From assembly GCA_021325635.1 (NCBI GenBank), contig JAJPGV010000041.1:62001-126000 (forward strand): DNA of 64,000 nt. Direction: 5' to 3'. Both the position numbers and the translations under genes were made by a program. The notes beneath the pieces were generated by a model. The model searched no databases. It saw only the letters and a list, made by a program, of their open reading frames with translations, and was not told the DNA's origin. This DNA is from Chloroflexota bacterium (lineage in GTDB: Bacteria > Chloroflexota > JAJPGV01). Shown here one piece after another: positions 6,127 to 62,407 of this stretch (its first letter is position 1; each line of letters starts with the position of its first letter).

Positions 6127-7077
6127 ATGTCACGAAAGAAGATTGCCGTCATCGGCGCCGGCATGGTCGGCGCGACAACTGCCCAGCGGCTGGCCGAGCG
6201 TGGCTATGCCGACATCGTCCTCACGGACATCGTCGATGGGATGCCCGCGGGCAAGGCGCTCGATCTCGAGGAGGCTGGCCCGGTCGTTGGCTACGACAGC
6301 CACGTGCTGGGCGTGACGACCACCGAGCCCGACCACTACAAAGCCCTGGAGGGGGCCGACGTGGTGCTGGTCACCTCCGGCGTGCCGCGCAAGCCCGGCA
6401 TGAGCCGTGACGATCTGTTGGGGACCAACGCCAAGATCATCAAAGGCGTGTGCGAATCGATCAAGAAGTACGCCCCCAACTGCATTCTGCTGCTGATGAC
6501 CAATCCGCTCGACGCCATGTGCCACGTCGCCATGCAGGCAACGGGCTTTCCTCGTGAGCGCCTCATTGGCCAGGCCGGCGTGCTCGACTCGGCGCGTTTC
6601 CGCACGTTCATCGCCCGTGAGCTCAACGTTTCGGTAGAGAGCGTGCACGCCTTCGTGCTCGGCGGCCACGGCGACGAGATGGTGCCGCTGCCCCGCTATT
6701 CGACCGTGGCCGGCGTGCCGATTACCGAGCTGCTGCCGCCCGATCGTATCGACGCCATCGTGCAGCGAACGCGCCAGGGCGGCGCGGAGATCGTCAACCT
6801 GCTCAAGACCGGCAGCGCGTTCTACGCTCCGGCCGCATCGTTTGCCCAGATGGTCGATGCCATCGTGCTCGACAAGAAGCAGATCCTGCCCTGCTCGGTG
6901 CTGCTGCGCGGCGAGTACGGCGTCAAGGATCTGTTCGTGGGCGTGCCGGTGAAGCTGGGCGCGGGTGGCATGGAAGGCGTGTTCGAGATCAAGCTGACCG
7001 CGGACGAGCAGGCCCAGATCGATAAGTCGGCCGGCGCCGTCAAGGAGCTGGTCGACGTGCTTCCGCGTGTGATGTAA
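6127..7077 (+). CDS. mdh: Malate dehydrogenase, LDH-like type
   Basis: NAD-dependent interconversion of malate and oxaloacetate. The N-terminal Rossmann motif GAGMVG is followed by an acidic residue at the end of beta-2 (LTDIVDG), expected for NAD preference. The substrate loop [11 protein letters not shown] carries the arginines, and His181 in GGHGDEMVP is the catalytic base. The 316-residue length fits the tetrameric lactate-dehydrogenase-like group. The ATG has a clean AAGGAG site. The 76-base gap after pckG shows no terminator, so co-transcription is likely. Confidence 0.97.
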
Positions 7078-7119
7078 GGAAGGCGCGAGGAAAGGCAGTT
7101 GGCAGTAGAGGTTGCAGCC

Positions 7120-8523
<1,404 letters not shown>

Positions 8524-58841: not shown

Positions 58842-59528
58842 TCAGGAGGAGGCCGGAACGACGTAGATGACGCCGTTGAGCTGCTGGACCGGTATTCGTT
58901 CCAGCCTCGGCAGCGGCCGGCCGTAATTCACCGGATTTGTGTGCTCTCCGGACACGGAGAACTCCGCCCCGTGACAGGGGCAGTCAAAGGCCTGCCCCTG
59001 GGCATTCCAATTGAGAATGCAGGCCTGGTGGGTGCAGATCGCGGACAGCGCCCAGATGTGCCCGCCGATGTTCATGACGTGGCCGTCTTTGTCGTTGGCG
59101 AGGAAGCGCTTGACGGCGCCCGGCGGAAGCTCGGCGGCCTTGGCCACGGGCACCCAGCCCGCGGGCACGCTGTCCCGCCCGCGGATTCGCTCCAGGGCCT
59201 GCTGGCCAAACAGGCACACCACCACTGCCGCCGCGCCTCCGGAAAACCCGCGCAGCAGCGTCCGCCGGCTCAATCGAAGATCCGGCAACCAGCTCTTCTG
59301 CTTGGGCATGAAGCGGCTTCGCAGGGCTTGAACGAAGGTGTGGCTCGGCACGGAGTCCGCCGAGCGGTAGCTCGACAGCAGGCTGGCCATGCGCAGGCTG
59401 CCGGCTGCTTCCCCAAGCAGCGCTTCGGGATTGTCGGGCCGCTTTCCGGCCAGGAGGTCGCCGATGCATCGATCGAGCGCTTCGACTTGCTCGTCCGTGG
59501 GGTTCGGGCCCTCCTCGTCCGGCGTCAC
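58842..59528 (-). CDS. Membrane-anchored Rieske [2Fe-2S] protein, possible anti-sigma factor
   Basis: Residues 1-85 are a cytoplasmic, Asp/Glu- and Leu-rich helical stretch (DEQVEALDRCIGDLLAGKRP, NPEALLGEAAGSLRM), then a Tat-like twin-arginine SRRTLLRG and a membrane helix (about 94-112), then a Rieske domain with ligands Cys165/His167 (CTHQAC) and Cys183/His186 (CPCHG) plus the disulfide Cys170/Cys185. It overlaps the ECF sigma gene by four bases (ATGA). That gene order and topology are typical of sigma/anti-sigma pairs, so a redox-sensing anti-sigma role is inferred; an electron-transfer role is the alternative. Confidence 0.8.
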   Translation of the reverse strand: MTPDEEGPNPTDEQVEALDRCIGDLLAGKRPDNPEALLGEAAGSLRMASLLSSYRSADSVPSHTFVQALRSRFMPKQKSWLPDLRLSRRTLLRGFSGGAAAVVVCLFGQQALERIRGRDSVPAGWVPVAKAAELPPGAVKRFLANDKDGHVMNIGGHIWALSAICTHQACILNWNAQGQAFDCPCHGAEFSVSGEHTNPVNYGRPLPRLERIPVQQLNGVIYVVPASS

Positions 59529-60118
59529 CAGGCCATCTCCCGACCGATCTCAGCTGCCTTGCGCAGTGCGCGAAACTGCAGGACCTTGACGTTCGTTTCG
59601 CTGAGCTGCATGGCAGCTGCCGTTTCGCGCACCGTGTAGCGTTGCAGGAAGCGATATTGCAAGACGTCACGATACCTGGGCTGTAAGGCGTCCAGAATCC
59701 GGCCGACGCGCTCGTCCCTCGCTGTCCGGTTGAAGTCGGCGGGCGCCTCCGCGTCGACGACCTCGAGCCCCTCCGGCATGGCCATGGCCGGCAGCTTGTA
59801 TTTCTCGCGCCAATGGTCGTTCACAGTCACACGAGCAATCTGAAAGAGCCAGCCCTCGAGGCTGCCGCGACCTTCGAAGCGCCCGAGGCTGTTGAACACC
59901 TTGAGGAAGATCTGTGAGGTGAGATCTTCCGCCTCCTCGCGGTTGCCCACCTGGCTGAAGACGAAGCCGTACACACGGCCTACGTGCTGCTCGTATACCG
60001 AGGCGAAGTCCCGCTCCTGAGCTGGCCGCTCGGCGGAGCCTTCGACCTCGGCGCGGATCATCCGACTGCAGGCAGAGGACGTCCACAGCCACAAGCCGTG
60101 AGCGTCGAGATTCGCCAT
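59525..60118 (-). CDS. ECF-family RNA polymerase sigma factor
   Basis: Region 2 (about 37-105: FASVYEQHVGRVYGFVFSQV, REEAEDLTSQIFLKVF, RGSLEGWLFQIARVTVNDHW) and region 4 (about 140-190: LDALQPRYRDVLQYRFLQRY, TVRETAAAMQLSETNVKVLQ) are both complete. ATG 60118 gives 197 residues; ATG 60061 gives 178 and starts closer to region 2. It overlaps the Rieske gene by four bases. A GGAACC/CGAC promoter-like element lies just upstream, suggesting autoregulation. Confidence 0.93.
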   Translation of the reverse strand: MANLDAHGLWLWTSSACSRMIRAEVEGSAERPAQERDFASVYEQHVGRVYGFVFSQVGNREEAEDLTSQIFLKVFNSLGRFEGRGSLEGWLFQIARVTVNDHWREKYKLPAMAMPEGLEVVDAEAPADFNRTARDERVGRILDALQPRYRDVLQYRFLQRYTVRETAAAMQLSETNVKVLQFRALRKAAEIGREMAW

Positions 60119-60130
60119 TGCGCTACAGGT

Positions 60131-60154
60131 GTCGGATAGCCGTTACAGGGTTCC
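60131..60154 (-). promoter_or_regulatory. Possible ECF-type promoter of the sigma-Rieske pair
   Basis: On the minus strand GGAACC (60149-60154) is followed after 14 bases by CGAC (60131-60134), similar to the GGAAC/CGTC pattern of ECF promoters. It lies 13 bases before the sigma ATG at 60118; a start at 60061 would leave a more usual leader. Confidence 0.4.
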
Positions 60155-60248: not shown

Positions 60249-61409
60249 TCAGGCGATCAGGTGCTGTTCGAGGTCCATAAGGCTGTTCAGATTGTGGGCC
60301 GGCGCGAAGACCTCTATGTACGGTAGGGCCGTTCGCATGCCCCGGCACAGCGGCTGGTAGCCTCGGTTGGACATGAGCGGGTTGAGCCAGATGACCCTCG
60401 CTGACCGCCGCTGGAGCTCCGACATCTGGACGTCGAGCAGCTCCGCGTCGCCGGTGTCCCAGCCGTCGCTGAGCACGATGACCACTGTTCGCTGATCGAG
60501 CAGGCTGCCCGCCCACTCGTCGTTAAAGGTCTCCAGGCTCTGCCCGATGCGCGTGCCGCCCGACCAATCCAGCACCTCTTTGGAGATGGTGTCGAGGGCA
60601 TCGTAGATGTCCTGATTGCGGAAGTAGTCGGTCACCCGCGACAGCTGCGTGCTGAAGACGAACGACTCGGTCCTGGCGAAGTTGCTCTGAAGCGCGTAGA
60701 TGAACTGCAGGAGGAAGCGGCTGTACACGTCCATCGAGCCGCTGACGTCGCACAACAGCACGAGCTTGGTCTTCTTGATCTTGCGCTGCTTATGCGCCAG
60801 CTCGATCACGTCGCCGCCGTACTTGAGGTTGCGGCGCATGGTGCGCCGGCGGTCGATGACGTGGCCGTGCCGCGTCTGCTCCATGCGCCGGCTGAGGCGT
60901 GTTGCCATCTTGCGCGCCATGCGCAGCGTGATACGGATCATCTCCTCCAGCTCGTCGGCGCGGAAGGCTGAAAAGTCCTTGCCGCTCATCAGCTCGTCGG
61001 CGCTGTAGCCGGCGACTTCCTGCTCCTCAGCGGTGTCGTCGTCCTGTGGGCCCCCGGCCTCTACCTCTTCATTCACGCTGTCGCCGCCCTCGCCGGCGGC
61101 ATCATCCGAGGCTGTGGACGACGCCGGCAGCGCCAGCTGATCCGCGCCTTCGTCCCACGGGTCGTCGGCGAAGAGCCGCGGCCAGAAGTCGAAGAAGACC
61201 TCATCGAAGATCGGAATGTCCTCGAGCCGCGAAGTCATCACCGTACGAAGGGCGAGATAGAACTCCCGACGGTCGGCGATGTCAACCGATCTCAACGCCC
61301 GCAGGCTGTCGATGCCTTCGCCCGGAGTGACGAGCAGCCCTCGCTGGCGCAGCCGCATGCCGAAGTCGACGACGTTGGCAAGCAGGGAGCCTTTATGCGA
61401 TCCGACCAT
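60249..61409 (-). CDS. CoxE-like von Willebrand factor A protein
   Basis: A 386-residue protein. The C-terminal VWA domain (about 200-386) has the MIDAS motif LLCDVSGSMDVYS with RTVVIVLSDGWDTGD. The N-terminal half, with a long acidic stretch (about 105-145), is typical of CoxE-like proteins that pair with MoxR ATPases to assemble metalloenzymes such as CO dehydrogenase. No Mo-enzyme gene is in the window. It follows the MoxR gene after 53 bases. Confidence 0.85.
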   Translation of the reverse strand: MVGSHKGSLLANVVDFGMRLRQRGLLVTPGEGIDSLRALRSVDIADRREFYLALRTVMTSRLEDIPIFDEVFFDFWPRLFADDPWDEGADQLALPASSTASDDAAGEGGDSVNEEVEAGGPQDDDTAEEQEVAGYSADELMSGKDFSAFRADELEEMIRITLRMARKMATRLSRRMEQTRHGHVIDRRRTMRRNLKYGGDVIELAHKQRKIKKTKLVLLCDVSGSMDVYSRFLLQFIYALQSNFARTESFVFSTQLSRVTDYFRNQDIYDALDTISKEVLDWSGGTRIGQSLETFNDEWAGSLLDQRTVVIVLSDGWDTGDAELLDVQMSELQRRSARVIWLNPLMSNRGYQPLCRGMRTALPYIEVFAPAHNLNSLMDLEQHLIA

Positions 61410-61462
61410 CGTTACTCACAGCCTAGCGAATAGGTGCTTTCCTGAGCGATCTACTCGCTGGC

Positions 61463-62407
61463 CTAGACTTCGAGGGCGGTGAGCTGCTGCCGGAGGGCGG
61501 GGATGATGTCGCCGGGCGGGCGCCCGTCCCCGCTGACCGCGCTGAGCAGGACGTCCAGCCGCTTGCCCGACATCTTCTGCACGTCGCGGTTGTCCTTGAG
61601 GAAGGCGACCAGCGTGTCGCGCACGTTCTCCTCGTCGAGGTGATCGCGGTGGAGTGACACCAAGGCCATGCCCCAATCGAGCGTCTCGGCCACGCCTGGC
61701 GTCTTGATCAGACGGACAGACCGCACACCCTGCATGAACATACAGATCTGATCGGCTAAGGCGTCGTTGACGCCTGGGACCTTGGCCTTGACCACCCGCA
61801 CTTCCTTCTCGAAGCTCGGATAGTCGATCCAGAAGAAGAGGCAGCGGCGGCGGAGCGCATCGCTGAGCTCGCGAGTGCGGTTGGAGGTAAGCACCACGTA
61901 GGGCACGTGTGTGGCCTTGACCGTGCCGATCTCCGGGATGCTGACCTGGAAGTCGGACAGCACTTCGAGCAGAAAGGCTTCGAACTCTTCGTCTGCCCGA
62001 TCGACCTCGTCGATCAACAGCACCGGCGCCTTGTCCTGGCGGGTGATGGCCTCGAGCAGCGGGCGCTTGAGCAGGAAATCTTCGCTGAAGATCTCGTGCT
62101 CTTTCTCGGCTACGCTGCGCCGGTCGTGCTCTTCCATCTTTATACGCAGCATCTGTTTCGGGTAGTTCCATTCATACAGGGCGGTGTTGACGTCCAGCCC
62201 CTCGTAGCACTGCAGACGGATTAAATCGACGTCCAGCATGCTGGAGAGCACCTTGGCGATCTCGGTCTTGCCGACCCCGGCTTGCCCTTCGATGAGGAGC
62301 GGTTTGCGGAGCTCCATGGCCAGGTACACCGCTGTGGCAATCTCGCTATCGGTGATGTAGCCGTTCCGCTCCATCTGTTCGAGAATGCGGCGAACTCCCT
62401 CGTTCAT
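61463..62407 (-). CDS. MoxR-family AAA+ ATPase (CoxD-like)
   Basis: Chaperone-like ATPase of 314 residues. Walker A IEGQAGVGKTEIAKVL, Walker B VLLIDEVDRADEEFEAFLLE, sensor 1 VLTSNRTRELSDALRRRC and the MoxR lid region are clear. Its partner is the VWA protein directly downstream. Together they probably insert a cofactor or remodel an enzyme complex encoded elsewhere. Confidence 0.92.
   Translation of the reverse strand: MNEGVRRILEQMERNGYITDSEIATAVYLAMELRKPLLIEGQAGVGKTEIAKVLSSMLDVDLIRLQCYEGLDVNTALYEWNYPKQMLRIKMEEHDRRSVAEKEHEIFSEDFLLKRPLLEAITRQDKAPVLLIDEVDRADEEFEAFLLEVLSDFQVSIPEIGTVKATHVPYVVLTSNRTRELSDALRRRCLFFWIDYPSFEKEVRVVKAKVPGVNDALADQICMFMQGVRSVRLIKTPGVAETLDWGMALVSLHRDHLDEENVRDTLVAFLKDNRDVQKMSGKRLDVLLSAVSGDGRPPGDIIPALRQQLTALEV

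Follow-up and report, generated by a model that had tools for sequence, protein, structure and literature searches.

The window, a stretch of 64,000 nucleotides from a Chloroflexota bacterium, carries on its reverse strand a gene for a BldN-like ECF sigma factor (59525..60118, 197 aa), followed directly by a gene for a Rieske protein that we infer to be its anti-sigma factor (58842..59528, reverse strand, 228 aa, GTG start). The sigma factor contains both Sigma70_r2 (3.5e-15) and Sigma70_r4 (1.4e-10) regions, and the Rieske domain PF00355 (1.7e-12) covers residues 125-196 of its neighbor. The four-base overlap described in the original prediction is borne out, as the two reading frames (60118..59525 and 59528..58842) share the bases GTGA. 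A promoter-like element, TGTAAC-N7-CGAC, precedes the sigma gene on the same strand (60131-60147). Genes flanking the pair in the window encode DnaN, a MoxR-type ATPase, a CoxE-like VWA protein, a polysaccharide deacetylase and a C39 peptidase/TPR protein, with the CoxE-like VWA and MoxR-type ATPase genes (60249-62407) located just upstream on the pair's own strand. Neither cytochrome b nor arsenite oxidase is encoded among these flanking genes, in agreement with the earlier observation that the Rieske gene has no adjacent electron-transfer partner.

The Rieske protein can be divided into three parts. Residues 1-80 (59289..59528, reverse strand) constitute a putative cytoplasmic, anti-sigma-like domain of three helices, which AlphaFold2 places at residues 12-26, 40-53 and 63-73, consistent with the helical N-terminal part of about 85 residues that was previously noted. 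Residues 86-112 (59193..59273, reverse strand) comprise a twin-arginine motif, SRRTLL, and a hydrophobic anchor; the twin arginines expected before the hydrophobic stretch are Arg88, conserved in 59/59 family members, and Arg89, conserved in 57/59. Residues 121-228 (58845..59168, reverse strand) form an extracytoplasmic Rieske [2Fe-2S] domain that is complete, as had been proposed, with the cluster ligands Cys165, His167, Cys183 and His186 and the disulfide pair Cys170/Cys185. In an AlphaFold2 model built on 59 family members the Rieske fold is predicted confidently (pLDDT of 92-97 for residues 121-220), and Foldseek matches this domain to solved Rieske structures, the closest of which are b6f-type Rieske domains. 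The protein has both the CxH...CxxH ligands and the fold of Rieske [2Fe-2S] proteins, and it scores far under the cut-offs of the NCBIfam equivalogs.

Among the 59 family proteins, Cys165, Cys170, Cys183, Cys185 and His186 are invariant and His167 is present in 58, leaving the full set of four cluster ligands in 58/59 and the disulfide pair in 59/59. Such constancy argues that selection acts on the cluster itself, beyond the fold alone. In bc1/b6f Rieske proteins a tyrosine and a serine, both of which raise the potential, occupy the positions of residues 190 and 188. These high-potential residues are replaced in the present family by Phe190 (59/59) and by Ala or Gly at position 188 (52/59), and a middling cluster potential would therefore be expected. 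Two individual sequences deserve mention: one family member (L021:1486-2103) is the sole protein of the 59 in which Asp replaces the first ligand His (CTD), and a Rieske match in genome G119 (L171) contains one in-frame TAG, which may reflect decay of this copy or an error in sequencing.

A search for the same gene pair in related genomes, which had been suggested as a check, revealed that the pair recurs. In named genomes, a sigma gene lies directly upstream of 44 of the 45 Rieske-family proteins scoring above 145 bits, and the single unpaired locus (L058) is cut by the end of its contig, 3 nt from its start; all Rieske proteins scoring below 102 bits are without an upstream sigma gene, and the family is thus cleanly separated from Rieske proteins that have no sigma neighbor. 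A protein search of 101 genomes returned 29 loci from relatives; in 25 of them (Chloroflexota) a sigma gene of the same orientation immediately precedes the Rieske gene, and no sigma gene was found upstream of the remaining four (L030, L032, L033 and L035). Within one order all fetched loci were paired (30/30), and in paired loci outside that order the two genes overlap mostly by 4 or 8 bases. Because the arrangement recurs in dozens of genomes, the pairing is beyond chance. The hosts belong to Chloroflexota and Actinomycetota, the named ones including Chloroflexota MAGs, Dictyobacter, Ktedonobacter, Actinomadura, Nocardia, Catenulispora, Streptacidiphilus and Smaragdicoccus. The degenerate-pattern scan behind these named hosts used a narrower set of sequences, the full 26-row alignment having no sufficiently conserved stretch.

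Linkage to cytochrome b or other respiratory genes in relatives had been named as evidence that would speak against an anti-sigma role, and the pair proved to be conserved without such genes. No cytochrome b, cytochrome c or molybdopterin enzyme is recurrent among the annotated neighbors of the pair; unlike bc1/b6f Rieske subunits, the family has no cytochrome b or other redox enzyme encoded alongside it. The window genome has a second Rieske gene (L002) adjoining reading frames for 4Fe-4S and molybdopterin-type oxidoreductase proteins, as assigned by inspecting their translations, and only about 30 residues precede the RR motif of its product. Neighborhood clustering was performed on codon-position G+C, since antisense reading frames confounded plain clustering. 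Several other genes accompany the pair in particular lineages. A PAP2-superfamily gene recurs upstream of it in Actinomadura and a Streptosporangiaceae MAG (L039, L049, L054, L057 and L098), and a gene for a YtkA/FixH-like small secreted protein is found downstream of it in Ktedonobacteria-type loci, as assigned by Pfam (L059, L061 and L112) or by clustering (L078 and L092). In Nocardia (L068, L075 and L088), the pair is immediately succeeded by a second ECF sigma gene (approximately 6366-7336), which is itself preceded at 42 nt by a GTAACC-N6-CGTA element.

The window sigma factor is closest, both by sequence and by fold, to the BldN of the BldN-RsbN complex, which is its best match in the PDB (6dxo, 1.1e-16), and its score against the BldN family model TIGR02952 is 110 bits, under the cut-off of 206. 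The sigma factors paired with Rieske proteins form one clade (61/61, support 1.0) that is nested among BldN-like ECFs linked to DUF5667 proteins and sits on a long separate branch; in the sampled members of the window sigma's clade the Rieske gene comes next. A reverse search with the sigma factor identified four close paralogues (L272, L273, L274 and L275; two in G025 and one each in G034 and G003). No Rieske gene occurs within the stretches read around them, one of which ends at a contig end 293 nt downstream, and the upstream element typical of Rieske-linked sigma genes (see below) is likewise absent from these stretches.

In the same phylum the sister ECFs are followed by DUF5667 proteins, one of them in the window genome, and these proteins are apparently the anti-sigma factors of the sister ECFs. 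RsbN itself is presumably a member of the DUF5667 family. Comparison of the N-termini of the Rieske proteins with those of the DUF5667 partners gave an hhalign score of 27.6 over 64 columns, whereas 200 column shuffles did not exceed 12.9 and a reversed profile reached 11.1, which indicates, at the level of profiles, that the two N-termini are homologous. Searched by itself as a profile, the N-terminus had no significant match among solved structures. A read-through fusion of the sigma factor and the N-terminus, taken from one in-frame pair, reached an AlphaFold2 pTM of 0.61 with just 12 alignment rows spanning the N-terminus, which is suggestive at most; such fusions were built from in-frame pairs, because aligning fused proteins together with separate ones misplaced the Rieske N-termini onto the sigma factor. 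As with RsbN-like anti-sigma factors, the gene stands directly after a BldN-like ECF gene, often overlapping it, and the product begins with a cytoplasmic domain homologous to those of the DUF5667-linked partners, the likeness to RsbN running via these partners. The extracytoplasmic DUF5667 domain is absent, and the C-terminus is a Rieske domain instead. The class I zinc anti-sigma motif (ASDI, Hx3Cx2C) was found in 0/59 N-termini, a result that concerns the zinc-bearing ASDI form only.

An ECF-like promoter element had been predicted before the pair, and an element is present there, but the conserved one is TGTAAC-N7-CGAC. A GGAACC sequence just upstream of it was evaluated as a possible -35 box and dismissed for lack of conservation in relatives. 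The relatives' counterpart, GTAAC-N6/7-CGTA, occurs upstream of Rieske-linked sigma genes in 31 of 53 non-redundant regions. At spacings of 3 to 23 in these regions, neither CGTA nor CGTT follows GTAAC at any other distance, and a second box sought at a spacing of 15-17 bp was not found. Upstream of the DUF5667-linked sister ECFs, GTAAC-N16/17-CGTT is found in 11/28 cases, a spacing that agrees with the BldN site reported as CGTAACN16CGTTGA (PMC2375139). The element of the Rieske-linked sigma genes hence has the first box of the BldN promoter class but not its spacing, and the second box lies 10 bp, or one helical turn, closer than in the sister ECFs. Several loci have their first, or their sole, start codon 9-10 nt past CGTA; if the element is a promoter, this distance would suit a leaderless message for which CGTA serves as the -10 box. 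A spacer of 6-7 bp in a core promoter would be hard to reconcile with sigma-DNA contacts, and no shortening of the linker between sigma regions 2 and 4 was seen in the Rieske-linked sigma factors. The element may instead be a binding site for another regulator.

In the window genome the pattern YGTAAC-N7-CGAC occurs at 7 sites, versus 59 for the reversed-pattern control. One site precedes the sigma gene itself, two precede cupredoxin genes by 38 and 65 nt, and another lies 54-63 nt before the genome's only Lipoprotein_15 gene; the others are located 15 nt before another MoxR-like ATPase gene (L269), distinct from the one next to the pair, 254 nt before a gene for a Tat-signal protein, and within a gene. 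The binomial probability for the sites before cupredoxin and Lipoprotein_15 genes (P about 1e-10) is a post hoc figure, the pattern having been picked after the sigma upstream region was seen, and 2 of the 7 sites are without a convincing target. In relatives, the CGTA form of the element precedes genes for cupredoxins, Lipoprotein_15, ferritin-like proteins (followed by TatA), NHL proteins and sulfocyanin. Matches to the element cluster around the pair in G015, G025 and G061, and in several large Ktedonobacteria-type genomes their counts are not above the reversed-pattern control. The scanned cupredoxin resembles amicyanin/plastocyanin electron carriers according to NCBIfam, and the predicted regulon is rich in exported electron carriers. 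The pair yields a testable predicted regulon and spans two phyla.

The original reading of the Rieske protein as a redox-sensing anti-sigma factor gains support from features established by computation, namely the gene pairing conserved without respiratory genes, the N-terminal homology to DUF5667-type partner domains, the near-invariant ligands and the common promoter-like element, as well as from the BldN-RsbN match and the predicted regulon of exported electron carriers. The pair is probably a sigma/anti-sigma switch in which exported electron carriers are controlled by an anti-sigma factor that is RsbN-like and carries an extracytoplasmic sensor of the Rieske type. At rest, the three-helix domain at the N-terminus would bind and inhibit the BldN-like sigma factor, keeping it at the membrane, while the Rieske domain, exported by Tat with its [2Fe-2S] cluster already loaded, would be located outside. 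There the cluster may swap electrons with an oxidant or with exported carriers such as the cupredoxins. The signal would be a change in the cluster, most likely of its redox state and possibly its loss, and would cross the single membrane helix via a conformational change or proteolysis, freeing the sigma factor. The freed sigma factor would then transcribe its own operon and the genes for exported cupredoxins and Lipoprotein_15 (SCO0930-like) and, in some relatives, also those for Tat-exported ferritin-like proteins together with the TatA gene.

Three other explanations were considered. The first retains the anti-sigma role but assigns the signal to the presence of the cluster or to Tat export competence, which would reflect iron supply or oxidative cluster loss, the apo-form being unexported or degraded and the sigma factor freed. 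Tat exports Rieske domains in the folded state, and the nearly invariant twin arginine and the ferritin-like Tat proteins followed by TatA among the predicted targets are in line with this proposal; however, cupredoxins and Lipoprotein_15, rather than genes for iron uptake or Fe-S assembly, make up most of the predicted targets that recur, and we consider it unlikely, at about one chance in several. A less probable scenario, which we rather doubt, is that the Rieske domain of the anti-sigma factor senses copper, which would damage or displace the cluster and elicit a response in which cupredoxins and YtkA-like proteins handle the copper. The cupredoxins among the predicted targets and the YtkA-like genes that closely follow the pair in Ktedonobacteria-type loci could be explained in this way, but no copper exporter or chaperone was present among the predicted targets examined, and the amicyanin/plastocyanin likeness of the scanned cupredoxin points to electron transfer. 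It is very unlikely that the Rieske protein serves chiefly in electron transfer, sharing a transcript with a sigma factor that it does not inhibit and that governs their common operon: the protein's intact, b6f-like Rieske domain and the possible redox partners in the predicted regulon would suit that role, but its N-terminus is homologous to those of DUF5667 partners, its family stands sharply apart from Rieske proteins without a sigma neighbor, and it has no recurrent cytochrome b/c or molybdopterin enzyme among its annotated neighbors, whereas the second Rieske gene of the window genome adjoins oxidoreductase frames.

We favor the redox-operated switch over signals given by cluster presence, iron or copper. 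If it is correct, iron-sulfur electron-transfer domains join the sensors that control sigma factors, and the cell could directly monitor the condition of the electron carriers it exports. A broader proposal, to which we would give somewhat less than an even chance, is that the pair represents a class of ECF signaling systems in which an extracytoplasmic Rieske [2Fe-2S] redox sensor of the anti-sigma factor gauges exported carriers and controls their genes, and the promoter boxes of the sigma factor lie 10 bp closer than those of sister ECFs. No description of a Rieske anti-sigma factor was found in the searchable literature, with the ECF classification (10.1093/nar/gkaa1229) and the RsbN-BldN structure paper lying outside that search.

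Among known systems, the Rieske subunits of b6f/bc1 complexes, PetC3 and the small subunit of arsenite oxidase share with the present family the Tat anchor, the [2Fe-2S] ligands and the disulfide, but the family differs in its anti-sigma-like N-terminus, its adjoining ECF gene and its lack of a partner enzyme. RsrA and ChrR, which belong to class I (ASDI), are anti-sigma factors that respond to redox change, as the Rieske protein would; however, they are zinc or thiol proteins, whereas HxxxCxxC is absent from the 59 N-termini and the putative sensor is an extracytoplasmic iron-sulfur cluster. The nearest parallel is σBldN/RsbN of Streptomyces (ASDIII, 6dxo), with RsbN being the membrane-anchored anti-sigma factor that defined the third class (PMC8103513). 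It provides the closest solved sigma factor, a membrane-anchored partner and the same first box (CGTAAC/TGTAAC), and the present pair differs from it in the Rieske domain outside the membrane, in a second box 10 bp closer and in sigma factors that form a long separate branch.
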